Both the position numbers and the translations under genes were made by a program. The notes beneath the pieces were generated by a model that worked only from the letters and a program-made list of their open reading frames with translations, made no database searches and had not been told where the DNA came from. Shown one piece after another: positions 5,621 through 34,270 of a stretch of DNA of 45,457 nt. This DNA is from a virus. Where the stretch lies: positions 1-45,457 of the IMG/VR virus record IMGVR_UViG_3300044818_000001. One strand, given 5' to 3'. Each line of letters opens with the position of its first letter. The first letter of the stretch is position 1.

Positions 5621-5626
5621 TACTTG

Positions 5627-21412: not shown

Positions 21413-21435
21413 CTATGATCTGAAGGTGGGACTAT

Positions 21436-21521: not shown

Positions 21522-21896
21522 GGCTCAGCAGACTATGCCAGGACATACTCACATGCAGATGAGCAGCCATGCTCACATGAGCAGCCAATAGCTCATACGT
21601 GCAGCCTTACGTGATCAGCAGAGGGAACGCGCGCACGCGTATACAGAGCGCTTAGCAGTAGCAACGTTTGCTCTAGAAGTGGACATAACCAGACGTTCTA
21701 GCCCAGCTTTGTATCAATGTTTGTACCATGTGCCGGCAGATGGTCCATGATGTCCGAATCGCCTGGCTTCCCCCGCTATCTCGTCTGCACGCTGCCTGAG
21801 CAGCGTGGACCATGATTCTTTGAGGAATCAGAGCGTTTGCAGGGGGTGCAGCACTCGCAAACAAGAGGGCATTGCAACCCCTCTGACCTGCGACTC

Positions 21897-23231: not shown

Positions 23232-23273
23232 GTCTGACCGGCAGGCATCTACGTTCGAGCCGTAGACAGGCAC
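23232..23273 (+). ncRNA. Mini-tRNA-like element 0
   Basis: Acceptor GTCTG/CAGGC (5 bp with one G-U), 11-nt linker ACCGGCAGGCA, T-arm TCTACG-TTCGAGC-CGTAGA (6 bp, 7-nt loop), then AC. It starts 48 nt after the upstream stop. No anticodon arm. Stem sequences differ from the other copies while pairing is kept. Confidence 0.8.
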
Positions 23274-23275
23274 TG

Positions 23276-23294
23276 AGGGCCCAGGAAGGGCCCT
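23276..23294 (+). other. Hairpin following tRNA-like element 0
   Basis: AGGGCCC-AGGAA-GGGCCCT, a perfect 7-bp stem starting 2 nt after the tRNA-like element and ending 18 nt before the next ATG. No U-tract of note. Confidence 0.65.
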
Positions 23295-23312
23295 TGTTCC
23301 AAGGGAGTGGAC

Positions 23313-23750
23313 ATGGCAAAGAACCTCGGAACCATCTGGGTTTGCCGAGACTGCATGCTGCACCATGCGAATGGTGAGTGCGGCGACTGTCACGATGACG
23401 ACTACGGTCACGACCGTGAGCCGTGGAGTCACCTGGACGGCAACGAGACTGTCACCATGGACAGCGTCGAGCACGATGACTACAGTCGGTCGTCGTGCGA
23501 CGGATGTGGCTCTTACCTCCACGGTGAGCGTCACTCGTTCACGTTGTGGCGAGAGAGCACGTACAAAGTGCGCCGCTTCTTCCGGGACGACCCGCAGAAG
23601 GACTTCACGGTCAAGTCGGGCCTCACCCTCGGTGAGGCTCAGGAGCGCTGCAAGAACCCTGAGACATCGTCCTCTACGTGCACCACGACAGAGGGCACCG
23701 ACCGAACGCTCCTGTACGGACCCTGGTTCGATGGGTACTATGAGGAGTAG
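23313..23750 (+). CDS. Cys-rich zinc-ribbon-like protein, 145 aa
   Basis: ATG 23313 preceded by AAGGGAG. Two Cys pairs near the N-terminus (WVCRDCMLHH and GECGDCHDD), then CDGCGSYLHGERH in the middle, so one or two zinc sites are likely. The rest is a basic segment followed by a polar Thr/Ser stretch. Probably nucleic-acid or protein binding; no named family recognised. Confidence 0.75.
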   Translation: MAKNLGTIWVCRDCMLHHANGECGDCHDDDYGHDREPWSHLDGNETVTMDSVEHDDYSRSSCDGCGSYLHGERHSFTLWRESTYKVRRFFRDDPQKDFTVKSGLTLGEAQERCKNPETSSSTCTTTEGTDRTLLYGPWFDGYYEE

Positions 23751-23755
23751 TCGAA

Positions 23756-23780
23756 ACTCCAGCACTAGCGGTGCTGGAGT
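23756..23780 (+). other. Intergenic hairpin
   Basis: ACTCCAGCA at 23756-23764 pairs with TGCTGGAGT at 23772-23780 (9 bp, 7-nt loop) 5 nt after the upstream stop. The 87-nt gap also holds GTGGG/CCCAC. No T-arm is present, so this gap lacks the tRNA-like element of its neighbours. Confidence 0.6.
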
Positions 23781-23837
23781 CTGTGGGATCTGACCTACCC
23801 ACACTGATGAGACAGGTCGACAAGGGAAGAGGACAAG

Positions 23838-24254
23838 ATGATTAAGATCACTGCTGAGTCCGTCAGGGCTGGCCTGCTTGCACTGGTCAAGCAGGAGGGT
23901 GGAGACTTCATCTACACCCCCAAGCCTCCGACCGACGACGAAGAGGGTCAGATCAATGCCCGGTGCGTCTACGTTCACCAGGGCAAGCCTGACTGCATCG
24001 TCGGTCGGTTCCTGCACGGTCAGGGCGTGTCCCTGGAAGTGCTGACCGAGGCGGACAAGTATGAGTTCGGTGGCGGCTTGTCCGCCATTGAGCTCATCAA
24101 CCGGCTGCGTGATGGGGGCGTTATCAGCATGACGCCCGAAGCCGCCCGTGCCCTGACTACGGCACAGTATGAGCAGGACCAACTGAGCATGTGGGGAGTC
24201 GCCGTTGAGCGAGCTCTTCGCTACATCCCTTCCCCCGCTGGTGACTTGTCCTAG
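23838..24254 (+). CDS. Hypothetical early protein, 138 aa
   Basis: Begins MIKITAESVRAGLLALVKQE. It contains CVYVHQGKPDCIVGRFLHGQG and a C-terminal Gln/Glu-rich helix (TAQYEQDQLSMWGVAVERAL). Length and style resemble small phage proteins of the early region with no assigned role. Followed by tRNA-like element 1. Confidence 0.75.
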   Translation: MIKITAESVRAGLLALVKQEGGDFIYTPKPPTDDEEGQINARCVYVHQGKPDCIVGRFLHGQGVSLEVLTEADKYEFGGGLSAIELINRLRDGGVISMTPEAARALTTAQYEQDQLSMWGVAVERALRYIPSPAGDLS

Positions 24255-24288
24255 CGAGGGGAGACAGGGCCACTAAATAGGCCCGATA

Positions 24289-24330
24289 GCCCGAAAGGCA
24301 TACATCAGGGTTCGAGTCCCTGACGGGCAC
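24289..24330 (+). ncRNA. Mini-tRNA-like element 1
   Basis: Acceptor GCCCG/CGGGC, linker AAAGGCATACA, T-arm TCAGGG-TTCGAGT-CCCTGA, then AC. A second GCCCG lies 8 nt upstream (24281-24285), giving an alternative acceptor strand; the register chosen reproduces the 5-11-19-5 geometry of the other copies. Confidence 0.82.
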
Positions 24331-24333
24331 GCT

Positions 24334-24360
24334 CTGACACGCCCCAAGCGTGTCAGTTTT
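24334..24360 (+). terminator. Terminator-like hairpin after tRNA-like element 1
   Basis: CTGACACGC-CCCAA-GCGTGTCAG, 9 bp, followed by TTTT. This is the only element-associated hairpin in the series with a clear U-tract. It may give partial termination before the candidate lipoprotein gene. Confidence 0.65.
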
Positions 24361-24376
24361 AGGGAAGGGACAAAAG

Positions 24377-24667
24377 ATGCGCAAGAGTGATACATCCCTG
24401 ATCGCCATGGTGGTGGGGGTGTTCGTCGCTATGTTCATCGTCGTAGCCGTCGTGGCCTGCAATCCCGATGGGGCCAGTCCGAGTGGTGGAGGGTACTACC
24501 CTCACGACACCAGTCACGGCTACTACGACTCGCATCACCACTATCACTACTACCACAAGTACGGTAGTGGCCGCAAGGCGCCCAGAGTGGCCCCTCGTGG
24601 CCGATCCAGTGTGCGACGCGGCAGCAGTGGCGGCTCCGGCTTCAGCAAGTCCGGCCGTCGCCGCTAA
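24377..24667 (+). CDS. Candidate lipoprotein / membrane-anchored protein, 96 aa
   Basis: ATG 24377 with GGAAGGGA upstream. Residues 8-27 form a hydrophobic segment ending VVAC at Cys28, which matches a lipobox; Arg2-Lys3 precede it. After the Cys, a His/Tyr-rich patch (DSHHHYHYYHKYGSG) is followed by an Arg/Ser/Gly-rich tail. If lipidated, it would sit outside the membrane. Phage early lipoproteins can block superinfection, but this role is only a guess. Plain single-span membrane protein is the alternative. Confidence 0.7.
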   Translation: MRKSDTSLIAMVVGVFVAMFIVVAVVACNPDGASPSGGGYYPHDTSHGYYDSHHHYHYYHKYGSGRKAPRVAPRGRSSVRRGSSGGSGFSKSGRRR

Positions 24668-24677
24668 CAGCAAGGTA

Positions 24678-24719
24678 GCCCTACCGGCAGACACTCAGGT
24701 TCGAGTCCTGAGAGGGCAC
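24678..24719 (+). ncRNA. Mini-tRNA-like element 2
   Basis: Acceptor GCCCT/AGGGC, linker ACCGGCAGACA, T-arm CTCAGG-TTCGAGT-CCTGAG, then AC. It starts 11 nt after the upstream stop. Same 42-nt geometry as elements 0, 1, 3, 4 and 6. Confidence 0.83.
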
Positions 24720-24723
24720 TGGA

Positions 24724-24740
24724 AGCGCCGCAGGGGCGCT
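24724..24740 (+). other. Hairpin following tRNA-like element 2
   Basis: AGCGCC-GCAGG-GGCGCT, 6 bp, between the element and an AGGAGG ribosome-binding site. Confidence 0.6.
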
Positions 24741-24755
24741 GTCCAAGGAGGAATG

Positions 24756-25187
24756 ATGAGCAGCAGCTTCAGGACGTACTACATGGACGACGCTGTCTTC
24801 AACCTGGGCAATGTGATCGAGACCGCACAGGAGCGTCTTGCTGGTGTCAACTTCGATACGCTGGTCGGTACCGGTTTCTCCGGTAGCATCGTGGTTCCCT
24901 CCCTCGCCCTCGCGATGGGCAAGAAGTTCGTCCTGGTCCGCAAGGACACCGACGACAGTCATCACGGAGGCGGACGACTGCTTGGCGATCTCGGCTCCCG
25001 CTGGATCTTCGTGGACGACTTCGTGTCGTCCGGTCGGACCCGAGAGAGGGTGATGGACAAGCTCGACCTTGCGGCCCGAGAGTCGGAAGGGCCCACAGAG
25101 ATGGTCGGGCAGTACATGTACGTAAGCTATTCAGCGAACGGTCCGAGGTTCGAGCACTTCGAGTCCGAGTGGCTGGAAAAGTACTGA
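24756..25187 (+). CDS. Phosphoribosyltransferase-fold protein, 143 aa
   Basis: The second of two adjacent ATGs is 4 nt from AGGAGG and is preferred. Residues 34-50 (DTLVGTGFSGSIVVPSL) form the PRTase first loop; residues 83-95 (WIFVDDFVSSGRT) match the PRPP-binding motif with its acidic pair. LVRKDTDDSHHGGG may form the flexible loop. Type I PRTases use PRPP to make or salvage nucleotides, and some regulate RNA. The substrate cannot be read from sequence. It is flanked by tRNA-like elements 2 and 3. Confidence 0.85.
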   Translation: MSSSFRTYYMDDAVFNLGNVIETAQERLAGVNFDTLVGTGFSGSIVVPSLALAMGKKFVLVRKDTDDSHHGGGRLLGDLGSRWIFVDDFVSSGRTRERVMDKLDLAARESEGPTEMVGQYMYVSYSANGPRFEHFESEWLEKY

Positions 25188-25198
25188 TGATCAACCTA

Positions 25199-25240
25199 GC
25201 CTGAACGGCATACACTCTGGTTCGAGTCCAGGGCAGGCAC
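25199..25240 (+). ncRNA. Mini-tRNA-like element 3
   Basis: Acceptor GCCTG/CAGGC, linker AACGGCATACA, T-arm CTCTGG-TTCGAGT-CCAGGG (one U-G), then AC. It starts 12 nt after the PRTase stop. Confidence 0.82.
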
Positions 25241-25242
25241 TG

Positions 25243-25263
25243 CGACACGCTTGAAGCGTGTCG
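25243..25263 (+). other. Hairpin following tRNA-like element 3
   Basis: CGACACGC-TTGAA-GCGTGTCG, perfect 8-bp stem, 2 nt after the element and 25 nt before the next ATG. No U-tract. Confidence 0.65.
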
Positions 25264-25288
25264 GGACCAAGGGAATCGGAGAATCAAC

Positions 25289-25870
25289 ATGAGCATCACC
25301 CTCAGCAAGTCGGATGGGGCCAATCCTCTCGACGGCATCACCACCATGGGTGTGGGTGTCTCGTGGGACCCGTCTGCTGGTGGTAAGGGTGGCCTTCTGG
25401 GCCGACTCCGCCGTGAGGTGGGAGTCGACCTGGACCTCATCGCAGTCCTGTTCGTGGACGGTGAGCCGGTTCGGTTCGCTGGCCTGGACTCCCTCGACCC
25501 GCTGGGTAACGGCGGCATCGTGCACTCTGGCGATGCCCAGACCGGCAAGGGTGACGGGGACGATGAGCTGGTGTCGGTACAGTTCGACCGACTTGGCCCG
25601 GTAGACCGCGTGGTCTATGTGGCTGCGGCATTCAAGAACGGATCATCGTTCGAGAAGGCCAACAACATCAGCTTCAAGGTGTACGACTCCTCTGGCGGCA
25701 GTACTACTCAGGTGGCAGACATCTGGCCGTCCCTCCTGGGGACGGACAACGCCAACGCTGTTGCCGAAGCACGCAAGGAGGGTGCATCCTGGGTCCTCGA
25801 AGTGACCAACCGCAAGGGCAAGATCCGTCAGGGTGACAAGCAGTCCATCCTGCGGTTCGCTCAGGGCTAG
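25289..25870 (+). CDS. terD: TerD-family protein
   Basis: 193 aa. Typical TerD features: MGVGVSWDPS, DLDLIAVLFVDGEPVRF, then SLDPLGNGGIVHSGD and GKGDGDDELVSVQFDRL, with acidic residues placed as in calcium-binding TerD proteins, and a C-terminal AFKNGSSFEKANNISF. Ter proteins in bacteria are tied to tellurite and phage resistance and to stress signalling. In a phage it may counter or mimic host stress systems, which is inference. Length agrees with the family (about 190 aa). GGAG precedes the ATG. Confidence 0.92.
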   Translation: MSITLSKSDGANPLDGITTMGVGVSWDPSAGGKGGLLGRLRREVGVDLDLIAVLFVDGEPVRFAGLDSLDPLGNGGIVHSGDAQTGKGDGDDELVSVQFDRLGPVDRVVYVAAAFKNGSSFEKANNISFKVYDSSGGSTTQVADIWPSLLGTDNANAVAEARKEGASWVLEVTNRKGKIRQGDKQSILRFAQG

Positions 25871-25876
25871 AAGGTA

Positions 25877-25918
25877 GGGTGAATGGCATACTCCGGGGTT
25901 CGAGTCCCCGGCGCCCAC
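25877..25918 (+). ncRNA. Mini-tRNA-like element 4
   Basis: Acceptor GGGTG/CGCCC (one U-G), linker AATGGCATACT, T-arm CCGGGG-TTCGAGT-CCCCGG, then AC. It starts 7 nt after the TerD stop. The linker shares TGGCATAC with the D-arm of the complete tRNA at 5549-5620. Confidence 0.83.
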
Positions 25919-25920
25919 TG

Positions 25921-25943
25921 TCTCCTCGCAAAGGGCGAGGAGA
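25921..25943 (+). other. Hairpin following tRNA-like element 4
   Basis: TCTCCTCGC-AAAGG-GCGAGGAGA, perfect 9-bp stem, 19 nt before the next ATG. Confidence 0.68.
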
Positions 25944-25961
25944 TGACTCGCAGGAGTAGGC

Positions 25962-26441
25962 ATGATCGGTAACGAAACCGATGCCAAGTTCATCCGTGAC
26001 TGGTTTGTTGCGAATGGTGAGGGTGACCCTGACTACAGCGAGGCACCCGAAGGCTGGAAGCGCCTTGGGCGTGGCGTATCTCGCATCGCATTCCTCTCTC
26101 CTGAGGGGGTTGCTTACAAGGTTGATCGCTACCCCGATGACGGGTACAGCCAGACGAACGAGAGGGAGGCTGCCAATCTCCGCAAGTTCTACTTGCGGAA
26201 GATGCCCAAGGGCTGCCGCCTTCCCCGCTTCTCGTACTATCCTCTCGACCGCAATGGAGTGATGGCCATGGAGGCTTTCACGACGCTGCTGCGAGACCGG
26301 TACAAGCAAGGGGATGACCGAGACTTGAGGCTCACTGCAACCAGGCTCGGCAAAGCCCTGAACTCGTGGGACATGCACGATCAGAACATCGCCGTAGAGG
26401 AAGGGACCGACACCTTGGTGCCTATCGATCTAGGCATCTGA
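25962..26441 (+). CDS. Mini kinase-like protein A, 159 aa
   Basis: Shows a reduced protein-kinase/APH-like order: glycine-loop-like LGRGVSRIAFLSPEGVAYKV with Lys53, a possible helix-C Glu in NEREAANL, hinge-like MAMEAF, catalytic-loop-like WDMHDQNI (136-143), and PIDLG (154-158) in place of DFG. The chain ends right after this motif, so the usual C-terminal helices are missing. Paralogous to the next gene. Kinase activity is possible but uncertain, since the loop is degenerate. Known relatives would phosphorylate protein, sugar or antibiotic. Confidence 0.72.
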   Translation: MIGNETDAKFIRDWFVANGEGDPDYSEAPEGWKRLGRGVSRIAFLSPEGVAYKVDRYPDDGYSQTNEREAANLRKFYLRKMPKGCRLPRFSYYPLDRNGVMAMEAFTTLLRDRYKQGDDRDLRLTATRLGKALNSWDMHDQNIAVEEGTDTLVPIDLGI

Positions 26442-26447
26442 CTTACA

Positions 26448-26495
26448 GTCCGTCCCTTGGTGGGCTTGTGCGGGTTCGATCCCCGCTGCGGACAC
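26448..26495 (+). ncRNA. Mini-tRNA-like element 5 (with D-arm-like hairpin)
   Basis: Acceptor GTCCGT/GCGGAC (6 bp, last pair U-G), a CCC-TTGGT-GGG mini-hairpin carrying GG in the loop like a tRNA D-arm, then T-arm GCGGG-TTCGATC-CCCGC and AC. It is 48 nt long, slightly larger than the 42-nt copies, and starts 7 nt after the upstream stop. Confidence 0.78.
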
Positions 26496-26497
26496 GG

Positions 26498-26513
26498 GCG
26501 CTCATCAGAGCGC
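26498..26513 (+). other. Hairpin following tRNA-like element 5
   Basis: GCGCTC-ATCA-GAGCGC, 6 bp with a 4-nt loop, followed by an AGGAGG site for the next gene. Confidence 0.6.
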
Positions 26514-26532
26514 TGTCCTTACAGGAGGAATC

Positions 26533-27021
26533 ATGGACGTCGGAAACGCCCACGATGCTGCGCTGATCTATCGATGGCTCTATGAGTCTGAGCGAGAGTA
26601 CGGACGATCTCAGCGTGTATGGGACGCGAAGGCTCCCGATGGCTGGGAGTTCCTCGGGTCAGGCTCGTTCCGTTCGGTGTGGCGCTCCCCTGAGGGAGTC
26701 GCCTACAAGGTTCAACACACCAGCCGCACTTCCCAGTCCAACGAAGGTGAGTACAGGACCCTCCAGGAGGCTCGCCTGTGCAAGCTTCCCGAGAGGGTCA
26801 GGCTGCCGCTGGCTTCGCTGTTCGAGGTCGACAACTGCTTCGTGATCGCTATGGAACTGATCCGTGGCCCCAGGCTGTACGACTACCAAGGGGCAGACCA
26901 GAGTGACCTGATGGAGATTCTCTACGAAGTGGAAGTCACCCTCGAAATGGGCGATCTTCACAGCGAGAACGCCATGGTCGATGAGGATGGAATGCTAGTC
27001 CCTGTCGACTTCGGCTGCTAG
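26533..27021 (+). CDS. Mini kinase-like protein B, 162 aa
   Basis: Better-preserved paralogue of the preceding protein. Gly loop GSGSFRSVW (42-50), Lys59 in VAYKV, IAMELIRGPRL as hinge, GDLHSEN (140-146) matching the APH/kinase catalytic loop with Asp141 and Asn146, and VDFGC at the very end with metal-binding Asp159. It also terminates just after the DFG-like motif. The intact catalytic signatures make ATP-dependent phosphotransfer plausible; the substrate is unknown. AGGAGG lies 7 nt upstream of the ATG. Confidence 0.78.
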   Translation: MDVGNAHDAALIYRWLYESEREYGRSQRVWDAKAPDGWEFLGSGSFRSVWRSPEGVAYKVQHTSRTSQSNEGEYRTLQEARLCKLPERVRLPLASLFEVDNCFVIAMELIRGPRLYDYQGADQSDLMEILYEVEVTLEMGDLHSENAMVDEDGMLVPVDFGC

Positions 27022-27028
27022 GCAGCAA

Positions 27029-27070
27029 GCCCTACTGGCAGACGCTCTGGTTCGAGTCCAGAGAGGGCGC
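27029..27070 (+). ncRNA. Mini-tRNA-like element 6
   Basis: Acceptor GCCCT/AGGGC, linker ACTGGCAGACG, T-arm CTCTGG-TTCGAGT-CCAGAG, then GC in place of AC. It starts 8 nt after the upstream stop. No hairpin follows, and the next ATG is 24 nt downstream. Confidence 0.8.
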
Positions 27071-27094
27071 GCACTACATAGGGAAAGGACTACC

Positions 27095-27247
27095 ATGAAC
27101 GAGCACTACGACTCCTGGGATCAGTGGATCGAGGAGTCCCGCTGCATGATCTGCGGCAGTAACATGAAGTACTCCGATGGGGTTGTGTGCTCTGCCACGT
27201 GTGCAGACGTCCTCGACCTTCGTCAGGGTAACGACTGCTATGCGTAG
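27095..27247 (+). CDS. Cys-rich small protein, 50 aa
   Basis: ATG 27095 after GGAAAGGA. Product MNEHYDSWDQWIEESRCMIC... carries CMICGS and CSATCAD, a four-Cys zinc-binding pattern with 14 residues between the pairs. Probably a zinc-stabilised adaptor or nucleic-acid-binding peptide. Overlaps the next gene by 8 nt. Confidence 0.68.
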   Translation: MNEHYDSWDQWIEESRCMICGSNMKYSDGVVCSATCADVLDLRQGNDCYA

Positions 27248-27383
27248 CACGATCAAGGCAGCGAAGTCACGTCTGACACGGTTCGATGCATCGCTACGGG
27301 TATACTCGTTTACGACGCACTCGAACGCTGGCCGCCCGGTCAAGCGTGTCGGAGTCGTCAGACTAAAGGGAGGTAGTGCGTGA
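27240..27383 (+). CDS. Basic small protein, 47 aa
   Basis: ATG 27240 lies inside the end of the previous gene. Product starts MRSTIKAAKSRLTRFDAS and ends RPVKRVGVVRLKGGSA; it is strongly basic, which suggests RNA or DNA binding. AGG and the following GTGA overlap couple it to the next gene. No family recognised. Confidence 0.6.
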   Translation: MRSTIKAAKSRLTRFDASLRVYSFTTHSNAGRPVKRVGVVRLKGGSA

Positions 27384-27856
27384 ATTACGAGAACGCTCAA
27401 AGGGTCATCGCCGAGGCTGAGAAGATCCTGGCCGAGGAGTACCCGAAGGCCAGGGCCGAGGTTTGCCCTCAAGGCAGCGAGTGCCCTGTCCACTTCCGGG
27501 TGGACGATGAGTACATCGACCAGTCGATCTGGTATGCCCGGCTGATTACCTATGTGGGTGACTACGTGGTGATCACAGAGGACAACAACCAGCTTGGCAA
27601 TCCTGCCGTGATGGCAAAGGTTCTCTCGGGTGCTGCCCGTAAGGATGAGATGCCGGATCGCTGGGAAACCACTATCCTGCACATCGGTTCGGGTGTGATC
27701 TCCGACCTGACCCTCATGAACGAGGCGCAGCAGCGCCGAGCTCTGCGATACCTGAAGACGCACAACGACTGGGATGGCATCATCGCTCGTCACCGTGCGA
27801 CTACGTACCTGCTGAGTCGTGGGATGATCAACGTCTCGAAGCCTCTGGAGGGCTGA
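27380..27856 (+). CDS. Hypothetical early protein, 158 aa
   Basis: GTG start in a GTGA overlap, GGGAGG upstream. Begins MNYENAQRVIAEAEKILAEE, with CPQGSECPVHFRVDDEY and a C-terminal helical part (NEAQQRRALRYLKTHNDW, then ATTYLLSRGMINV). Mixed alpha/beta soluble protein. No family recognised. Confidence 0.72.
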   Translation: MNYENAQRVIAEAEKILAEEYPKARAEVCPQGSECPVHFRVDDEYIDQSIWYARLITYVGDYVVITEDNNQLGNPAVMAKVLSGAARKDEMPDRWETTILHIGSGVISDLTLMNEAQQRRALRYLKTHNDWDGIIARHRATTYLLSRGMINVSKPLEG

Positions 27857-28044
27857 TGGCCATCAAGGTGGAGGCGGATGACTCCGCCTCTGGCACAGGC
27901 TACTGGACGTCAAGCGTGTTCGATGCTCGGTCCATCCTGGGGAACATCGCCGACGAGTTCGAGAACGATCTCGCCGAGAACTACCCCGAGTATGTGCGTG
28001 ACGCAAACGTCTACAAGGTGACGATCACAGTAGAAAAGGTCTGA
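27856..28044 (+). CDS. Hypothetical early protein, 62 aa
   Basis: TGATG overlap with the previous stop. Product begins MAIKVEADDSASGTGYWTSS and ends VYKVTITVEKV; it is acidic with a short helix (ADEFENDLAENYPEYV). Last gene before a structured 150-nt gap. Confidence 0.7.
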   Translation: MAIKVEADDSASGTGYWTSSVFDARSILGNIADEFENDLAENYPEYVRDANVYKVTITVEKV

Positions 28045-28053
28045 TCCATCCGT

Positions 28054-28073
28054 CCGAGGGCTAACGCCCTCGG
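28054..28073 (+). terminator. Hairpin after the 27856-28044 gene
   Basis: CCGAGGGC-TAAC-GCCCTCGG, an 8-bp stem with a tetraloop, 10 nt after the stop. No U-tract; may be a weak terminator or 3'-end protector. Confidence 0.6.
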
Positions 28074-28082
28074 CGGTCTAGT

Positions 28083-28182
28083 CAACAGGTGGCTTGCCGA
28101 AATATAAGTAGGCACGTCCCTAGGCTGGTCCCCGATGATGGGACTTCTTCAGTCACCTGTTGGCCAGTCCGCAGTAAGCGGA
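28083..28182 (+). ncRNA. Three-way-junction-like leader RNA with alternative pairing
   Basis: CAACAGGTG 28083-28091 pairs perfectly with CACCTGTTG 28154-28162. Inside are TGCC/GGCA (28095-28114) and GTCCC/GGGAC (28128-28144). An extra GTCCC at 28116-28120 could compete for the same GGGAC. TCCGC-AGTAA-GCGGA (28168-28182) then lies next to the AGGAGG of the following gene. This looks like a regulatory leader, possibly switching; no known class recognised. Confidence 0.6.
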
Positions 28183-28197
28183 TCAGGAGGTAAAAGC

Positions 28198-28431
28198 GTG
28201 AAGATGTACGTGGTATCAACCAGTGGTAACACGCGGTTCGCCTTGCTCAAGGAGAACCTGTTGACAGTCTCCTGCTCGGGCAACGACAAGGTTGCCCGCA
28301 TGGAGGCCAGGGATGCTGCCCGACGTCACACCAGGGAGACCGATCAGCCTACCTGGGTCCACGTGGTGGACATCAAGCCCGTGGACATGTTCCGAGTGGA
28401 AAAGCAGGTGAACCATTCTCCCCTCGACTAA
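28198..28431 (+). CDS. Hypothetical early protein, 77 aa
   Basis: GTG 28198 is 7 nt from AGGAGG and is preferred over ATG 28204. Begins MKMYVVSTSGNTRFALLKEN; contains ARMEARDAARRHTRET, a basic helix, and WVHVVDIKPVDMFRVEK. Preceded by a folded leader. Unknown function. Confidence 0.72.
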   Translation: MKMYVVSTSGNTRFALLKENLLTVSCSGNDKVARMEARDAARRHTRETDQPTWVHVVDIKPVDMFRVEKQVNHSPLD

Positions 28432-28450
28432 CCAGCAGATCGAGGAAGTC

Positions 28451-29002: not shown

Positions 29003-29109
29003 CAGCTCAAGCGCTGGCACAACAGATGGTAGGGAAGGGCGCCGGTGGCGCCATCCTGGTAGGTGCGATCATCATGTGGCTGGCTGGCTCGGGAGGTAAG
29101 CGACGGTGA
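28996..29109 (+). CDS. Single-span membrane protein, 37 aa
   Basis: MVTAQALAQQMVGKGAGG precedes a hydrophobic segment AILVGAIIMWLAG and a basic end (GGKRR). Overlaps the upstream gene by 7 nt and the next by 4 nt. A membrane micropeptide; no function known. Confidence 0.62.
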   Translation: MVTAQALAQQMVGKGAGGAILVGAIIMWLAGSGGKRR

Positions 29110-29246
29110 GCAAGTATGACTGGGTCCTGTTGAGTGGCGTGATCGCCACCACGACTACCGCATGGTGGTATCAGATCCGATACTATCGGCTGGTGGACGA
29201 TCTCTTCGAGTTCCTCACCGTTGCCCCGCCAGAGGAGGACGAGTAA
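29106..29246 (+). CDS. Small membrane protein, 46 aa
   Basis: GTG start in a GTGA overlap. MSKYDWVLLSGVIATTTTAW forms one hydrophobic helix, followed by a basic/aromatic segment and an acidic tail (APPEEDE). Together with the preceding gene it forms a two-gene membrane pair. Last gene of this early segment. Confidence 0.62.
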   Translation: MSKYDWVLLSGVIATTTTAWWYQIRYYRLVDDLFEFLTVAPPEEDE

Positions 29247-29254
29247 CGCAAGAA

Positions 29255-29274
29255 GCCCCGGCGAAAGCCGGGGC
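29255..29274. terminator. GNRA-capped hairpin between converging genes
   Basis: GCCCCGGC-GAAA-GCCGGGGC, 8 bp. On the minus strand it is followed by TTCTTG, which could help end the sigma-factor transcript; on the plus strand it follows the membrane-protein genes. Confidence 0.65.
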
Positions 29275-29279
29275 CCCTC

Positions 29280-29339
29280 GGGTAGATCTGAAGTTGGAGA
29301 GGGGTTGATCACCCCGGAGGTTCGAGTCCTCCCTACCCG
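29280..29339 (+). ncRNA. Sixty-nt tRNA-like element 7 (degenerate cloverleaf)
   Basis: Acceptor GGGTAG/CTACCC; D-arm TCT-GAAGTTGG-AGA; anticodon-like arm GGGG-TTGATCA-CCCC; T-arm GGAGG-TTCGAGT-CCTCC joined with no variable loop. The anticodon position would read GAT (Ile), but position 37 is C, the stem has 4 bp and the variable region is missing, so I do not call a decoding tRNA. It is the only plus-strand copy with an anticodon-like arm and seems intermediate between a tRNA and the 42-nt elements. Confidence 0.72.
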
Positions 29340-29340
29340 C

Positions 29341-30018
29341 TCACCCCTCATAGTCCCGTTCGACACGGGCCACCCCAGAGGCGGCATTGCGAGCCTCTGT
29401 ACGCCCCTCATAGCCTCTCCGGAGGTCAGTCAGGGGCATCTGTCCAAGCAGTGCCTGTATGGCCTTCAGCGCCCTGTTGTGGCGCTCGTTGACCGACTGC
29501 TTGGAGGTGCCGGTATCGGCGCCGATCTGGGTGAAGGTGTGCTGGTACTTGTATCGCCACACCATGAGGTTGTAATAGTCTTCTGGAAGCTTTTCCACAG
29601 CCGACTTGACGTCGGCGTACGAGGCAAGGTTGTCGCCGCCCGTAGCAGGCTCGGACTTGGCCTTAGGCTGAGAGTCCTGCGACATAGCGAACGACTGCCA
29701 GTCCTCGTACCGGAAGACGACTTCCAGGATCCTCTTGATCAGGTCGATCGAGTAGAAGAACTTGTCCTCCTGGCTGTAGCCGTAGACCGCAGCATCCTCT
29801 TTCTTGAGGGCTCCCTGCGCCACCTTAACCAGGTGTGCAGCGACGCGGTCCGGCCCATCTTCCTCAGTCAGGATTCTGGTGACCGTGTTCTTGTTCTCCA
29901 TGATCCACACCCAGATCTCCTGCTTGATGTCGGAGATGTCGTGGTGTGCAGGGAAGTTGGATGCAGCGATGCCCGCAGCACGATCGACTGCGGGTGTCAA
30001 CTTAGTGTAGTCAAGCAT
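29341..30018 (-). CDS. Sigma-70-family (ECF-like) sigma factor
   Basis: 225 aa. N-terminal part has a region-2-like stretch (DISDIKQEIWVWIMENK). Residues 138-190 form a clear region 4 HTH: AVEKLPEDYYNLMVWRYK, then TFTQIGADTGTSKQSVNERH. A charged Ser/Lys/Pro-rich linker separates them. Likely redirects host RNA polymerase to phage promoters, perhaps the late ones, since no RNA polymerase is encoded. In a three-gene minus-strand operon; overlaps the 54-aa gene before it by 8 nt. Confidence 0.82.
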   Translation of the reverse strand: MLDYTKLTPAVDRAAGIAASNFPAHHDISDIKQEIWVWIMENKNTVTRILTEEDGPDRVAAHLVKVAQGALKKEDAAVYGYSQEDKFFYSIDLIKRILEVVFRYEDWQSFAMSQDSQPKAKSEPATGGDNLASYADVKSAVEKLPEDYYNLMVWRYKYQHTFTQIGADTGTSKQSVNERHNRALKAIQALLGQMPLTDLRRGYEGRTEARNAASGVARVERDYEG

Positions 30019-30175
30019 CTGGGTGTCTCCTACAGATCTCGAACCATTCCTCTTCAGTCATGGTTCCATTGGTCACTACGGGCGGCATCGTGATGCCCAG
30101 TTCTACTTCAAGCTGCTTGATGCGGTTGTAGTCAGGTTTGGGCGGCCCCTTGGGGCGCCGCTTCCATGGCCACAC
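30011..30175 (-). CDS. Hypothetical small basic protein, 54 aa
   Basis: GTG 30175 begins directly after the metallophosphoesterase stop (TGAGTG), with GGGAGAG upstream. Product begins MWPWKRRPKGPPKPDYNR and ends with an acidic helix (TEEEWFEICRRHPDA). Overlaps the sigma-factor ATG. The N-terminal Trp/Arg/Lys/Pro cluster suggests binding to nucleic acid or RNA polymerase, but this is a guess. Confidence 0.7.
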   Translation of the reverse strand: MWPWKRRPKGPPKPDYNRIKQLEVELGITMPPVVTNGTMTEEEWFEICRRHPDA

Positions 30176-30946
30176 TCAGATCCGCTCTCCCTTGAAGTAT
30201 CCCAGCCTGTCTACTAGTGTAACAAGCTCAGGCCACACTCTCTTCCCGTCATCCTCCAGCCAAGCGAAACTTTGCTGCCAGGAAACGGCTCCGTCCTTCA
30301 CGTACGTAGCAGCCACGGGATCCATGATACTTCCCGAGTTCATCGTGAACCTGGGTGACACACGTCCCGAGTAACCGAACGCTCGGGTGATCAGGAAAGG
30401 CTGGTGAGTATGTCCGAACACGAAGTTCTTGTCACTGCCGTAACGCTTAGTGAACTTAGCGTCCCAAGCGCTGGCACTGGCACAGTACCCGCCCGCCTCG
30501 TGGCCATGTACAGCAAGCGTGTTGGTAGCGATGCGCACAGGGCCACGTTCGTAGCGGACACCGAGATCATCCAGTCCGAACAGGGACTCCATTTCAAGCG
30601 CCCGAAGGTTGGTGAGTGGCGCAGCGTACTTCCGGACAAAGTCCTTGACCCTCTGGTCATGGTTCCCTTCGAGCCACAGGACGTCTGCCTGAGGAGCAGC
30701 CTCCCGTACTGGAACGAGGACTTCACGACGGTAACCGTCTATGTGGTCCTGTAGGGTGTCTGCGTACTCTCCTGCCTGACCCTTGGACCACTGTGAGACA
30801 GTCGGGAAGTCGATGCCATCTCCGATCTGCACGATCTGATCGGGCTGTCGGTCACGTACTACACGCAGGATCTTCTGTAGTACAACCTCATCATGGTACG
30901 GATACTGGATGTCCGGGATGACTAGGGTTGATCGCGTTTTGGCCAT
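30176..30946 (-). CDS. Calcineurin-like metallophosphoesterase
   Basis: 256 aa from ATG 30946. Motifs in order: PDIQYPYHD (11-19), IGDGIDF (41-47), LEGNHDQR (92-99), VHGHEAGG, and GHTHQP, the five signature blocks of binuclear metal phosphoesterases. The substrate could be a phosphodiester in nucleic acid or a nucleotide. No Shine-Dalgarno is present and a TATACT sits 7 nt upstream of the ATG, so the mRNA may be leaderless. Heads the operon with the sigma factor. Confidence 0.88.
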   Translation of the reverse strand: MAKTRSTLVIPDIQYPYHDEVVLQKILRVVRDRQPDQIVQIGDGIDFPTVSQWSKGQAGEYADTLQDHIDGYRREVLVPVREAAPQADVLWLEGNHDQRVKDFVRKYAAPLTNLRALEMESLFGLDDLGVRYERGPVRIATNTLAVHGHEAGGYCASASAWDAKFTKRYGSDKNFVFGHTHQPFLITRAFGYSGRVSPRFTMNSGSIMDPVAATYVKDGAVSWQQSFAWLEDDGKRVWPELVTLVDRLGYFKGERI

Positions 30947-30968
30947 ACAAGTAGTATACATGAAAGGG
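30928..30968. promoter_or_regulatory. Divergent promoter region
   Basis: Plus strand: TTGATC (30928-30933), 18-bp spacer, TAGTAT (30952-30957), then GAAAGGG as RBS for the RHH gene. Minus strand: TATACT (30958-30953), 7 nt before the metallophosphoesterase ATG. The two -10 elements overlap in GTATAC, so the RHH protein could control both directions. Confidence 0.6.
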
Positions 30969-30976
30969 TTGACTGT

Positions 30977-31186
30977 ATGGCGTACGTCAGTCAGACGACA
31001 AAGAAGCAGGTCACAGCACGTATGACACCGCAGTTCGCCAAGGATCTGAACCTGATCATGGCGTGCACCGGCAGTACAAACGCTTCGGGTGTAGTACAGG
31101 ATGCAGTACACCAGCTCGCTGAGTACTACAGGTTCGCCATGCAGCGCAACAACACTGCCCTACAGGACGTCGAACAAGAGGTGTGA
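30977..31186 (+). CDS. Ribbon-helix-helix-like DNA-binding protein, 69 aa
   Basis: Product begins MAYVSQTTKKQVTARMTPQF. The order is a short basic beta strand (KKQVTARM), helix A (PQFAKDLNLIMACTG), and helix B (NASGVVQDAVHQLAEYY), as in RHH (MetJ/Arc) proteins. Lies at a divergent promoter, which suits an autoregulatory repressor. Its stop codon is embedded in a perfect inverted repeat (31181-31198). Confidence 0.7.
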   Translation: MAYVSQTTKKQVTARMTPQFAKDLNLIMACTGSTNASGVVQDAVHQLAEYYRFAMQRNNTALQDVEQEV

Positions 31187-31198
31187 CGCAGGTCACAC
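31181..31198. promoter_or_regulatory. Perfect palindrome GTGTGAC-GCAG-GTCACAC (Crp-like site)
   Basis: Contains TGTGA-N6-TCACA and also fits GTG-N6-GNCAC, which I recall as the Streptomyces Crp consensus. It overlaps the RHH gene stop. A near-identical site lies 181 bp downstream. It could bind host Crp or the phage's own regulator. Confidence 0.6.
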
Positions 31199-31230
31199 TA
31201 CTTCAAAAATTTCCAGAGAGAGTTGCCCGA

Positions 31231-31362
31231 ATGCCCGACATCAAGAGCCTCGACAAGAAGATCACGATCCTTCCTGATTGGCGAGGAGACTGCGACGAAC
31301 CGCAGGTAGAGGTGGTGATGCCGCACCCTTGGGCGCGCCGCATCTCAGGCTTCGAAGAGTGA
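31231..31362 (+). CDS. Hypothetical small protein, 43 aa
   Basis: ATG 31231 to TGA: product begins MPDIKSLDKKITILPDWRGD and ends PHPWARRISGFEE. Only a weak AGAGAG lies upstream. Codon use is compatible with a gene and it fills the space between two repeated palindromes, the second of which abuts its stop. Moderate support only. Confidence 0.45.
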   Translation: MPDIKSLDKKITILPDWRGDCDEPQVEVVMPHPWARRISGFEE

Positions 31363-31378
31363 TGTGACGCAGGCCACA
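31363..31378. promoter_or_regulatory. Second Crp-like site TGTGACGCAGGCCACA
   Basis: Same core as the 31181 site (TGTGACGCAGG then CCACAC), one base off a perfect palindrome, again directly after a stop codon. Two sites on either side of a short gene suggest cooperative or looping control of the 31-kb regulatory region. Confidence 0.55.
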
Positions 31379-31522
31379 CAAAGTCCCATGTTTAAAGGGT
31401 CTGAAACTGGGGATACTTCTTTTAGTTGGGTTTAGACACTTGCGCATCTAGCACATCGACTCGACGGAGCCCCAGCGACGGCGACGGTCGAACATGGTGC
31501 AACTAGGCGCCTACTAGTGGAC

Positions 31523-31552
31523 TTGACAGCGCATGCTAGACTGAAGTTAGGT
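31523..31552 (+). promoter_or_regulatory. Candidate promoter for the WhiB/replication operon
   Basis: TTGACA at 31523-31528, 18-bp spacer, TTAGGT at 31547-31552. A consensus-like TAGACT (31537-31542) is also present but is too close to this -35. It would start a leader of about 110 nt before the WhiB-like gene. Confidence 0.48.
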
Positions 31553-31633
31553 AGTGACAACGAAGGGGCCGACCCTAAGGGAGGTCCCAACGAATGTCCT
31601 ACTAATAGACAGGTTCAGGTCCCCTCCCTGGAG

Positions 31634-31646
31634 GTCGGGTCCCGAC
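31634..31646. promoter_or_regulatory. Palindrome GTCGGG-T-CCCGAC
   Basis: Perfect 6-bp half-sites around one base, 26 nt upstream of the WhiB-like start. Too tight to be a good RNA hairpin, so a protein operator is more likely; WhiB proteins often control their own genes. Confidence 0.45.
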
Positions 31647-31671
31647 AGTTCAACAGATAAGCGGGGAGAAG

Positions 31672-32178
31672 ATGAGCAACGGACCAGTCGTTCCACTACT
31701 ACGACCCACTCTGTGGGCTGTGTCCCACGAAGAGTGGCGAGATGATGCACTCTGTAACGGACTACCTGTCGAACAGTTCGAACTGTCCGATGATCTGACA
31801 CCGGACGATCAGCATGAGCTGATCGCTCAAGGTCTAAAGGTGTGTGCATCCTGCCCTGTCAGGCAGGAGTGCCGGACCAACTCCGGTGAACTGGATAGAC
31901 ACTGGACTACCCGAGGTGGACAGCCCCCGGAGGGGCTGTTCCCAGACTCGAAGACTCCTAGGTATCAGTTCCCTCAGGCTCGACCTGGAGGATTCCTTCC
32001 TGGTGGAAACACGGGACGGAAGCCCAAGGAGAAGTGCAAGCACGGACACATCAACTGGGCAGAGCCTGACGCCAGCGGTAAGCGTCGTTGCAAGACCTGT
32101 CAACTGGAGTACAACCAGCGTGGCTGGGCTGTACGCAAGGCCAAGCAGAAGGCCAAGATACGTGCTACGCTGGCTTGA
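31672..32178 (+). CDS. WhiB-like Fe-S transcription factor fused to a Cys/His zinc module
   Basis: 168 aa. Residues 20-92 match WhiB: DDALC (Cys28), CASCPVRQEC (Cys58, Cys61, Cys67), then TRGGQPPEGLF in place of the usual G[VI]WGG turn. These four Cys would hold a [4Fe-4S] cluster. Residues 121-150 form a second Cys/His module (KCKHGHINW, RRCKTCQLEYNQRG) like those beside phage HNH nucleases, ending in a Lys-rich tail. WhiB proteins act with the actinobacterial primary sigma factor, so this would reprogramme host RNA polymerase. TGATG overlap with the next gene. Confidence 0.88.
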   Translation: MSNGPVVPLLRPTLWAVSHEEWRDDALCNGLPVEQFELSDDLTPDDQHELIAQGLKVCASCPVRQECRTNSGELDRHWTTRGGQPPEGLFPDSKTPRYQFPQARPGGFLPGGNTGRKPKEKCKHGHINWAEPDASGKRRCKTCQLEYNQRGWAVRKAKQKAKIRATLA

Positions 32179-32999
32179 TGGAACACATCTCGTACTCCCA
32201 GTATCGCTCGTATACTAGCTGCCCCCGCTCATGGTATCTTGCCCGCCTGAAGGGCGGGGAAGACAAGCAGTCCTGGTACATTCCTATCGGCTCATCAGTA
32301 CATGACAAGATAGAGGCTCGCCTCAAGGGCGAGCCCGATCGTCCGATGGAAGACTACTTCTATCCGATCGTGTCCAAGCAGATGCGCATAGAGCCGGATC
32401 TTTCAGCCTGGTTGGCTGGAGGTCCGGAACATGCGCCTATCACCCACGAGAAGGCCCTTCAGAGGGCCGTAGACTGCTACGAGAAGGCCTTGCAGGAGCT
32501 GGAGGACATCGAGGTATGGGAGGTGGAGTACGAAGCCACAGGCAGGCTCCCAGGGCTTTCGGTTCCGGTGAAAGCGTTCCTTGACATCGTCGGAGAACAC
32601 AAGAAGAAGGGTCCTGTCATCTGGGATTGGAAGACGGGTAGCACCAAGCCTGACAACTTCCAACTCATCACGTACGCAGCACTGTTGAAGGTTCCCGGCG
32701 TAAGCGGGAACGATCACCCGTTCACTGAACATGGGTCCTTGCCCTTTAAGGGAAGGTATGTCATGCTCGCCCCCGGAGGGGCGAACACCCGGTACGTAGA
32801 CCTGTCCGACGTAGACCCTGCTGAGGTTGGCGCCAAGTATCAGACTGTGGTAGAAAGGATCGAGGGCAAGCACTACGAGACGAAGGCTGGGTTCAACTGT
32901 AGGTTCTGCTTCCAGGCGGACAACTGCCTGGTCAACTCGGGGATGACGAAGAGGGCCGTGTATTATGACAAGTCAACCGAGGAAGGGTATCCGTTCTGA
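32178..32999 (+). CDS. PD-(D/E)XK nuclease, Cas4/RecB-like
   Basis: 273 aa from ATG 32178. Opening SYSQYRSYTSCPRSWYL with Cys15 and GSSVHDKIEARL are typical of RecB/Cas4 exonucleases. Active-site order: Asp136 in FLDIVGE, Asp150-x-Lys152 in WDWKTGS, and the QxxxY motif at 162-166. Three more Cys near the end (CRFCFQADNC) complete a Cas4-like iron-sulfur site. Likely a 5' exonuclease in phage recombination or host DNA degradation. No cas genes or CRISPR array are present. Confidence 0.88.
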   Translation: MEHISYSQYRSYTSCPRSWYLARLKGGEDKQSWYIPIGSSVHDKIEARLKGEPDRPMEDYFYPIVSKQMRIEPDLSAWLAGGPEHAPITHEKALQRAVDCYEKALQELEDIEVWEVEYEATGRLPGLSVPVKAFLDIVGEHKKKGPVIWDWKTGSTKPDNFQLITYAALLKVPGVSGNDHPFTEHGSLPFKGRYVMLAPGGANTRYVDLSDVDPAEVGAKYQTVVERIEGKHYETKAGFNCRFCFQADNCLVNSGMTKRAVYYDKSTEEGYPF

Positions 33000-33115
33000 T
33001 GGCCTGCGTTGAGACCGAAGAAGACGAAGTCGCCTGCTGGTGGAGGTGCGAGTGCGATGCGTGGAACCTGGACGAAGAGGCCGAGTGTGCCTCTTGCGGC
33101 CTGTACTGGGAGTAG
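32999..33115 (+). CDS. RanBP2-like zinc-finger micropeptide, 38 aa
   Basis: ATG overlaps the preceding TGA. Contains WWRCECDAWNLDEEAECASC, close to the W-x-C-x2-C-x3-N-x6-C-x2-C zinc-finger pattern but with CxC in the first pair. Strongly acidic. Part of a series of Cys-rich micropeptides in this operon. Confidence 0.62.
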   Translation: MACVETEEDEVACWWRCECDAWNLDEEAECASCGLYWE

Positions 33116-33117
33116 CC

Positions 33118-33294
33118 ATGGGTGCGCGTGAGGACGACGACTACTGGAACAACAAGTACGCCGAGGCTTCGTGCTACAAGCACGAAGGCAGTGACATGTA
33201 CTACGATGAGGAAGAGGGCGAGTGGCTGTGCGATGACTGCCAGTCCGAAGCCGTCGAACGAGAAGACCAGACAAGGACGTACACGTATGGCTGA
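33118..33294 (+). CDS. Acidic Cys-containing small protein, 58 aa
   Basis: ATG 33118 with GGGAG upstream. Contains SCYKHEGSDMYYDEEEGEWL then CDDCQ, so Cys/His/Cys/Cys could bind zinc. Very acidic middle. Overlaps the next ATG by 8 nt. No family recognised. Confidence 0.65.
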   Translation: MGAREDDDYWNNKYAEASCYKHEGSDMYYDEEEGEWLCDDCQSEAVEREDQTRTYTYG

Positions 33295-33706
33295 GATTGA
33301 GATCCTGCTCCCGACTGTGCAGTACGGCAACGTGAAGGTGCGGGCTACGCCTGAGGAGCTGGGTCTTCATGGCATCGATAACTCCTACGAGCTGGGTGTA
33401 GCGGCTGCGGTCTATCTGAACCTGTTCTCGCAGGGCTTCAAGACTGGTGCCAAGGTGGACGTGAGCGCCCCTGTAAGCGCCCCGGAGAGCGAGGTGGACC
33501 GGGTCATCGACGAGACCCTGAAGAACGCTCAGAAGCTCGTACAGGACGGCCTTGGGGCTACTGAACTTGGTGAGGTGGATCAGGCTGTCGCCGATCTCGC
33601 TACCACCGAGTCCACGCCTCCCTGGAACTCCACGGTTGACAGTAAGCCGAAGCCGTGGGAGAGTGGAGAGACCGCCCCGAAGGCGGTCGTCTCCGAAGAC
33701 TGGTGA
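33287..33706 (+). CDS. Hypothetical replication-region protein, 139 aa
   Basis: Begins MAEIEILLPTVQYGNVKVRA. The N-terminal half is a beta-alpha domain, and the C-terminal half is a Pro/Ser/Glu-rich tail ending in acidic and aromatic residues (VVSEDW), as is common in ssDNA-binding proteins and their partners. Located between a Cas4-like nuclease and an SSB candidate, so a role in recombination or replication is plausible. Confidence 0.68.
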   Translation: MAEIEILLPTVQYGNVKVRATPEELGLHGIDNSYELGVAAAVYLNLFSQGFKTGAKVDVSAPVSAPESEVDRVIDETLKNAQKLVQDGLGATELGEVDQAVADLATTESTPPWNSTVDSKPKPWESGETAPKAVVSEDW

Positions 33707-34221
33707 TGGCGTTCGTTCGCAAGGGTGATCGAACGCTAGAAGAAGAAGCAGAACTAGACAAGAAGACACAGGAGATACTGGAAAATATGGCTACTCTCGA
33801 TGACCTGTTCGGCAGCAAGGCCAAGGGCCCGAAGGTCACCAACCTCAAGACCGTTGGCGAGTTCGTGAAGGGCGTCGTCAAGGAGATCGCGACCGACGCT
33901 CCCGTCTACGAGTGGGACGGGCAGAACAACAAGATGGGCTTCCAGAAGTACTGGGTGGACGGCAAGCCCAAGGGCGTGGCTGAGTCGGAGGCAAAGGCCG
34001 CCGGTCTCAACCCGGTTCACCAGATCATGATCACGGTCGAGACGAACGACGGTGACGTCCGCATCCCGGTCAACTCGAAGCAGGAGCGGGAAGCGTTCAA
34101 GCAGGCGATCATCGACGCTGGTGGTTCGATCGATCCGGGTGACATCATCGGCAAGAAGCTGACGGCACGTGAGGGCAACATCAAGACTCACGAGTTCAAG
34201 GTGACCAAGCAGGGCGCGTAA
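33706..34221 (+). CDS. Putative single-stranded DNA-binding protein, 171 aa
   Basis: The N-terminal acidic helix (TLEEEAELDKKTQEILENM) may be a leader region; an internal ATG at 33787 precedes ATLDDLFGSKAKGPKVTNLK. The remaining domain has alternating strands (VYEWDGQNNKMGFQKYWV, HQIMITVETNDGDVRIPV, IGKKLTAREGNIKTHEF) suggestive of an OB fold. Genomic position next to nuclease and helicase genes supports SSB, but similarity is not decisive. Followed by tRNA-like element 8. Confidence 0.6.
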   Translation: MAFVRKGDRTLEEEAELDKKTQEILENMATLDDLFGSKAKGPKVTNLKTVGEFVKGVVKEIATDAPVYEWDGQNNKMGFQKYWVDGKPKGVAESEAKAAGLNPVHQIMITVETNDGDVRIPVNSKQEREAFKQAIIDAGGSIDPGDIIGKKLTAREGNIKTHEFKVTKQGA

Positions 34222-34227
34222 GCGTCA

Positions 34228-34270
34228 GGGTGGATGGTCGCAGGACCGGTTCGACTCCGGTCCCACCCAC
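34228..34270 (+). ncRNA. Mini-tRNA-like element 8
   Basis: Acceptor GGGTGG/CCACCC (6 bp), linker ATGGTCGCAG keeping GG, T-arm GACCGG-TTCGACT-CCGGTC, then AC. It starts 7 nt after the upstream stop, as do elements 4 and 5, though it lies 7 kb away from them. No hairpin follows. Confidence 0.8.

Follow-up and report, generated by a model that had tools for sequence, protein, structure and literature searches.

Why does the early operon of a phage carry a series of short tRNA-like elements between its genes? The question is raised by a linear virus record of 45,457 bases (IMGVR_UViG_3300044818_000001; this whole stretch is called the window below), in which an earlier note had listed eight copies of a ~42-nucleotide (nt) tRNA-like RNA without anticodon. 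A matching element is present at each of the eight positions (Table 1). The six copies said to have one geometry share it exactly, namely a 5-base-pair (bp) acceptor, an 11-nt linker, a 6-bp T-stem, a 7-nt TTCGANN loop and then AC (GC in the copy at 27029), and they are referred to as class I. The other two copies had been taken as close variants. The copy at 34228 (class II, plus strand) is indeed close, and its linker AG pairs with the T-loop CT; the copy at 26448 is a variant with different stem lengths plus a 3-bp D-arm-like hairpin (CCC-UUGGU-GGG) in the predicted fold, and a variant of this type is also found in contig L107 at position 4744. Sequence comparison firmly supports the view that the 42-nt RNA is a miniature tRNA elbow without anticodon, and we consider it moderately probable that these minimal tRNA mimics are processing signals acting in cis to punctuate the operon.

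The copies are far above the chance level. In a geometric search of the window (acceptor plus T-arm stack of 11-13 bp, TTCRA loop, linker of 6-16 nt), seven matches were found on the plus strand, which are the eight listed elements minus the one at 26448, and none on the minus strand, compared with a mean of 0.06 matches per dinucleotide shuffle on both strands. The six class I copies score 53-65 bits with the covariance model, and the next match in 275 kilobases (kb) scores 23 bits. Two longer relatives absent from the earlier list were also recognized, one of 61 nt (29280-29340, plus strand) and one of 72 nt (5620-5549, minus strand); in the latter a 4-bp stem with a 6-nt loop replaces the anticodon arm. 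Neither ARAGORN nor Rfam annotates any of the window elements or their longer relatives, and the best match to the Rfam tRNA model (RF00005) in the window reaches 21.1 of the 29 bits needed, only at 5552-5620.

Because the stem pairs were demanded by the finder, they provide no independent test of the fold, whereas the linker pairs are independent of the search. Among 115 non-redundant, divergent class I copies, 99.9% of the stem pair cells are standard and 13 of the 14 pairs vary on both sides; the covariation score of these copies is 0.858, whereas shuffles give 0.177 and sliding the partners gives no more than 0.157. Of the 182 unique copies, 178 pair linker base 2 with base 8 (C-G, A-U, G-C or U-A), which closes an N-G-G-C-A loop; linker bases 9 and 10 form pairs with T-loop bases 60 and 59, the last two of the T-loop. 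These three tertiary pairs (2x8, 9x60 and 10x59) are standard in 99.4% of cells, and they show 95 double changes vs 30 in shuffles. The 9-60 and 10-59 pairs are an addition to the elbow, and we know of no tRNA that has them. In an independent scan, linker base 9 was left open and T-loop base 60 was forced away from U; the 84 stem-closed copies show 81 Watson-Crick and 3 G-U pairs at 9x60, and 2x8 is standard in all 84. The same trend appears in 26 matches without both stems closed, probably because many of these are elements of slightly different geometry.

Compensatory changes are also evident between close relatives. Between Streptomyces phages Amela and phiScoe45, eight orthologous elements differ at 24 places, with nine pairs changed on both sides, two changed on one side and none broken; between Lika and its relative L104, both tertiary pairs change together at one element position. 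The covariation claimed in the earlier note is thus borne out in stems and tertiary contacts, across the 115 copies as well as the ortholog pairs, and the linker GG, which it had placed where D-loop G18G19 would contact the T-loop, lies in a mini D-loop closed by 2x8 and docked by the linker/T-loop pairs. GG, G, TTC and A are the invariant positions, and the acceptor/T-arm stack carries a TTCRA T-loop as in tRNA. The invariant GG and UUC fit the canonical contacts of the tRNA elbow, G18-Psi55 and G19-C56 (PMC4810234). Class II elements have the linker A[T/A/C]GGTCGNAG and usually a stack of 12 bp. Their AG x CU pairing is found in 53 of 56 fixed-geometry copies, which is weaker evidence because the pairing hardly varies and the CU side was set by the search pattern.

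To explore the spread of the elements, three sequence patterns were searched in IMG/VR, and all counts are lower bounds. The pattern of linker, T-stem and loop matched at least 120 IMG/VR stretches, and the mini element is present in well over 100 viral contigs. According to the covariance model, a viral record holds up to 15 class I copies, all on a single strand and mostly in one region. In 257 gigabases of GTDB genomes, a strict pattern gave 24 matches, nearly all in Actinomycetota and Bacteroidota; the remaining ones are one in Gemmatimonadota, one in UASB270 and one in a further record, and a match in Prevotella was not confirmed by the covariance model. When genomes were searched whole with the model, most copies of a genome fell into a stretch of a few kb, with 10 copies in 3.2 kb for Actinocatenispora and 5 copies in 3.7 kb for the Gemmatimonadota genome, although in three genomes a pair is more widely spaced or lies on different contigs. 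Such clustering would fit prophages. Named carriers are Streptomyces phages phiHau3, Lika, Amela, phiScoe45 and Endor1 and Mycobacterium phage Oaker, and near-identical or closely similar DNA implies further carriers among the Arquatrovirinae, such as Werner, Zemlya and Sujidade. The recurrence in related phages that the earlier note had proposed as a check is seen in named phages and in viral contigs.

Placement was judged by the spacing to stop codons, compared with random positions, and by the annotation of named phages; a greedy gene caller was discarded, as 180 of 235 elements seemed to overlap spurious open reading frames on high-GC loci. The start of the element is -2 to 20 nt from a same-strand stop codon in 62.5% of 232 distinct copies, compared with 6.6% of random positions, and the spacing has a sharp mode at 6-8 nt. 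Such a distance would be expected of an element that has to keep its fold during translation of the last codons. By the annotation of five phages, 36 of their 37 copies lie between genes (Hau3 5/5, Lika 7/7, Oaker 8/8, Endor1 9/9 and Amela 7/8). The lone intragenic copy lies in the long N-terminal part of Amela gp73 (L217 11181-11993); its Endor1 counterpart has a shorter annotation with a later start and the element in front, so the start codon of Amela gp73 is likely annotated too far upstream. The repeated intergenic placement that the earlier note had named as supporting evidence thus holds. From locus position 8778 onward, Lika has nine gaps of 83 nt or more, and seven of them hold exactly one element each. 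One empty Lika gap has, by eye, a promoter-like TTGCAC/TACCTT, and TTGACA-like promoter sequences and GTGTGAG repeats were seen by eye in the element-free gaps L216 9300-9410 and L217 8064-8156 and 10173-10254. It seems that a gap holds either a promoter or an element.

On its 3' side, the helix is followed by A or G and then C in 178 of 182 copies, and CCA follows the helix in only 2 of 190 copies. This purine-C flank, almost never CCA, is the flank of the precursors of CCA-less tRNA genes. In related Streptomyces phages, 96 of 105 tRNA genes have C74 and only 14 have CCA. The tRNA genes of Flavobacteriia hosts are mostly N73-C74-A-rich (N73-C74-AAAA), matching the ACAA flank of the low-GC elements, and those of the sampled actinobacterial hosts are mixed, with and without CCA.

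Behind the flank, many actinophages show the order element, hairpin, ribosome-binding site and start codon, with the start codon ~33-52 nt 3' of the element in Endor1 and Oaker. The 40-mers downstream of the elements have a mean fold z of -1.26, and 44% of them are below -1.5, compared with 13% of upstream controls. As regards a terminator function, only the hairpin at 24334-24356 among the six window hairpins read is followed by a T run. Leaderless mRNA, with the element abutting the start codon, was considered as a candidate and rejected, because starts within 8 nt are rarer behind elements than in controls (3.5% vs 8.7%); an ACATG abutment is found in a few class II copies (L320, L345 and L393).

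Cleavage by RNase P and RNase Z would be the best reading of this anatomy. The 11-12-bp acceptor/T-arm stack, with the T-loop docked on a collapsed D-loop, reproduces a tRNA elbow without the anticodon arm. Host RNase P, which recognizes the acceptor stem, T-stem and T-loop and whose P15-loop GGU pairs with R73-C74, would cut at the 5' side of the element, directly 3' of the stop codon that ends the upstream gene. A 3'-side cut, by RNase Z where present or else by another nuclease, would free the 42-mer. The downstream message would be left with a 5'-terminal hairpin, a ribosome-binding site and a start codon, and the hairpin would protect it. In this way a long early transcript would become a set of stable single-gene mRNAs.

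The host enzymes bear on this proposal. Class A RNase P RNA is present in two actinobacterial and two Bacteroidota hosts, with a GGUAAAC motif in L15, whose GGU pairs with R73-C74-C75 (PMC11143913). E. coli RNase P RNA cuts hairpins made of acceptor, T-stem and T-loop at the correct site, and a tetraloop in place of the T-loop lowers the efficiency and shifts the cleavage site; M3 RNA and C4 RNA of phages are also RNase P substrates, as are polycistronic mRNAs (PMC11143913). The impaired cleavage of tetraloop substrates would account for the conservation of the T-loop and of the partner on which it docks. In the Bacteroidota hosts, RNase Z (TIGR02651) scores above the cut-off, and it is also clear in the Gemmatimonadota genome.

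Several observations weigh against processing by these enzymes between genes. RNase Z (TIGR02651) is below the cut-off in Jiangella, Amycolatopsis, Corynebacterium, Microbacterium and Galactobacter (weak) and just below it in Actinocatenispora, so that its role is uncertain in several of the actinobacterial hosts. The stack is 11 bp long in most copies, compared with 12 bp in tRNA, and the base at -1 is usually A. Three of the six class I copies in the window have a competing minimum-energy fold, which means that tertiary contacts or a protein must stabilize the functional one. The downstream hairpin seems to be absent in the Bacteroidota examples read, and the Beephvirinae phages, the nearest named relatives of the window phage, have none of the mini elements. 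In addition, class I and class II arrays with a spacing of 110-140 nt are found in L005 6614-7100 (minus strand), L151 and L110 175-1525 (minus strand), where 4-5 copies lie in a non-coding leader rather than between genes. The leader is rich in GGC repeats, full of GGCATGGC-type repeats, and located 5' of a conserved gene (M.I...GT.PLL.HN...); L151, from an Amycolatopsis genome, is the same stretch as the viral contig L005. The leader arrays suggest a release of small RNAs or a titration role.

The elements might instead be decoys that saturate host enzymes or defense nucleases binding the tRNA acceptor or elbow, such as tRNA-targeting toxins, modification enzymes or RNase P, and thereby spare phage or host translation. 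They retain just the part bound by elbow-recognizing factors, several phages hold 8-15 copies, and clusters lie outside genes in L005 and L110. Without an anticodon loop, however, they cannot divert anticodon nucleases, and a decoy needs neither one copy per gap nor a fixed distance to the stop codon, a single strand, or a hairpin and start codon behind it; weakened by this placement, the explanation appears rather unlikely. It is also unlikely that the elements are uncut protectors of 3' ends or barriers to decay, with a compact fold that stops 3'-5' exonucleases or delimits co-transcribed messages while no endonuclease cuts the RNA. Stable compact folds do lie directly behind stop codons, and tRNA-like 3' ends stabilize some viral RNAs, but a plain hairpin would suffice for this purpose, and the kept T-loop, GG mini D-loop and R73-C74 point to tRNA-binding enzymes.

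The sharp spacing of 6-8 nt might further be taken to mean that the fold meets the mRNA entry of a ribosome terminating just upstream and affects termination, recycling or re-initiation, possibly via a tRNA site. We regard such an insulating or coupling function in translation as quite improbable, because the same spacing is expected if the element only has to remain folded during the last codons, the leader copies have no translated neighbor, and start codons immediately 3' of elements are less frequent than in controls (3.5% vs 8.7%). A role as cassette boundaries, that is, short repeats promoting recombination and gene shuffling between phages, would agree with the different gene order between elements in the window and L107 and with the blastn matches that isolated elements yield between unrelated phages. 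Recombination needs sequence identity, yet the stems are diverse and compensating, which indicates selection on RNA and makes this role very improbable. Decay from tRNA genes is hardly credible at all: the window does hold two longer tRNA-like copies and related phages do hold tRNA arrays, but the exact fixed geometry, the spread over unrelated phages, the position behind stop codons and a tertiary covariation absent from tRNA are not those of pseudogenes, and the covariation refutes this origin.

We therefore favor operon punctuation by tRNA-like processing signals. For its general form we lean only slightly to the positive side: phages of Actinomycetota and Bacteroidota may share a widespread kind of viral RNA, a tRNA elbow of ~42 nt that is complete in itself and comes in two structural classes, and may use it to pass their polycistronic messages to the tRNA maturation of the host. 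This would be punctuation without tRNAs, apparently only in hosts whose tRNA genes often lack an encoded CCA.

Table 1. Positions of the elements, their longer relatives and the hairpins behind elements in the window.
Feature	Position	Strand	Sequence or architecture	Context	Evidence
Longer relative, near-complete cloverleaf	5549-5620	-	D-arm, T-arm, encoded CCA	starts 6 nt past stop codon; late region	
Class I element	23232-23273	+	GTCTG-ACCGGCAGGCA-TCTACG-TTCGAGC-CGTAGA-CAGGC-AC		geometry, covariance model 52.9 bits
Hairpin	23277-23293	+	GGGCCC-AGGAA-GGGCCC	directly 3' of element	
Class I element	24289-24330	+		34 nt past stop codon 24254	covariance model 64.6 bits
Hairpin	24334-24356	+	CTGACACGC-CCCAA-GCGTGTCAG	3' of element	
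Class I element	24678-24719	+		10 nt past stop codon 24667	covariance model 61.5 bits
Hairpin	24725-24739	+	GCGCC-GCAGG-GGCGC	3' of element	
Class I element	25199-25240	+		11 nt past stop codon 25187	covariance model 62 bits
Hairpin	25243-25263	+	CGACACGC-TTGAA-GCGTGTCG	3' of element	
Class I element	25877-25918	+		6 nt past stop codon 25870 of TerD-domain gene	covariance model 59.7 bits
Hairpin	25922-25942	+	CTCCTCGC-AAAGG-GCGAGGAG	3' of element	
Variant element	26448-26495	+	6-bp acceptor, 5-bp T-stem	6 nt past stop codon 26441	
Hairpin	26498-26513	+	GCGCT-CATCAG-AGCGC	3' of element	
Class I element	27029-27070	+	3' flank GC	7 nt past stop codon 27021	covariance model 55.1 bits
Longer relative	29280-29340	+	acceptor GGGTAG/CTACCC, extra hairpin GGGGTTGATCACCCC, T-arm, then GC		
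Class II element	34228-34270	+	12-bp stack (6 bp + 6 bp), 10-nt linker ATGGTCGCAG	6 nt past stop codon 34221	

The window phage itself has late genes related to those of Streptomyces phages of the Beephvirinae (Manuel, Immanuel3, FlowerPower, Stella and JXY1). These relatives were located through a late protein of 656 amino acids, which shows 52-55% identity to them; a near-identity search of the window among phages and a tblastn search with the product of a gene of 188 amino acids gave no matches. Each of the Beephvirinae relatives has 15-22 tRNA genes, and ARAGORN calls none in the window, though the mini elements are present. The degenerate tRNA-like copy at 5549-5620 (minus strand) sits in the late region, where the related phages have their arrays of 15-22 tRNA genes. 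In the early region of Beephvirinae, a single odd tRNA-like sequence is seen at L128 33827-33845 (minus strand), L126 34092-34163 (minus strand) and L130 34199-34268 (plus strand), with an unclear anticodon and, where annotated, the label tRNA-OTHER or pseudo; these are possibly related to the longer copies in the window. Most early genes of the window have no functional match in Pfam. The small early genes at 23313-27247 are reordered in the related contig L107 (4400-8550), each with its own element beside it, and the set common to both comprises a phosphoribosyltransferase-like gene, a His/Tyr-rich membrane protein and two related genes; this is cassette-like shuffling. A stretch of ~700 bases with no obvious gene (21000-21700) separates the late operon from the early one; it contains repeated motifs such as CGTCAG.GTGACGATAAGGG (twice near 21440-21520) and is a candidate origin or control region.

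The RNA family appears to be new, whereas tRNA-like processing signals as a principle are known elsewhere. In Rfam 15, no gathering match was found at the element copies of the window or of nine carrier loci; the only gathering matches in those loci are one tRNA (L013) and one c4-2 RNA (L066), both away from the elements, and LOOT RNA, to our knowledge a phage RNA, has no match at the element copies. No description of the elements was found in searches of an open-access library, which is weak evidence of novelty, and the passages searched in papers on the carriers Kamino, Vanseggelen and Verabelle do not mention them. We know of no smaller natural tRNA-like RNA with a full elbow than this 42-mer. 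Whatever its function, the tertiary covariation of this RNA family is unusually strong, and the family escapes present annotation. If it is cut as proposed, a general strategy of phage mRNA processing would have been overlooked in the much-used phages of Streptomyces and Mycobacterium, and the elements would provide a natural minimal RNase P substrate and a portable tag with which actinobacterial operons could be split, and would offer a testable explanation for the 80-120-nt gaps in phage early operons.

Among known systems, the model substrates of RNase P, which consist of acceptor stem, T-stem and T-loop and in which E. coli RNase P RNA cleaves the canonical site, have nearly the same minimal architecture (PMC11143913), but they are synthetic, whereas the elements are natural and evolved and add a mini D-loop. 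C4 RNA of P1/P7, M3 RNA and polycistronic mRNAs are alike in that RNase P processes phage RNA or intercistronic regions (PMC11143913); unlike the elements, they are not a repeated family with a tRNA elbow. The tRNA-like domain of transfer-messenger RNA shares the acceptor/T-arm stack and the reduced D-loop but belongs to a long RNA with a tag reading frame, to which neither ARAGORN nor Rfam gave a match in the window. The end signals mascRNA and menRNA (RF01684; MALAT1 and NEAT1) likewise have a tRNA-like fold without a working anticodon and are cut on both sides by RNase P and RNase Z (PMC12941219), and the elements share their position at the boundary of an RNA to be matured; mascRNA of MALAT1 is the counterpart in design of the proposed mechanism. 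These RNAs are ~56-58 nt long, have D- and anticodon-like parts, and occur in eukaryotes once per transcript, whereas the elements are 42 nt long and occur in phages several times per operon; the best RF01684 match in the window reaches 23.7 of 42.5 bits, only at the longer copy at 5552-5621. In placement, the elements resemble the tRNA punctuation of mitochondria, since tRNA-shaped elements lie between same-strand protein genes, on the coding strand and several per transcript unit. Mitochondrial punctuation, however, uses real tRNAs that double as signals, whereas the phage elements have no anticodon and probably no role in translation.

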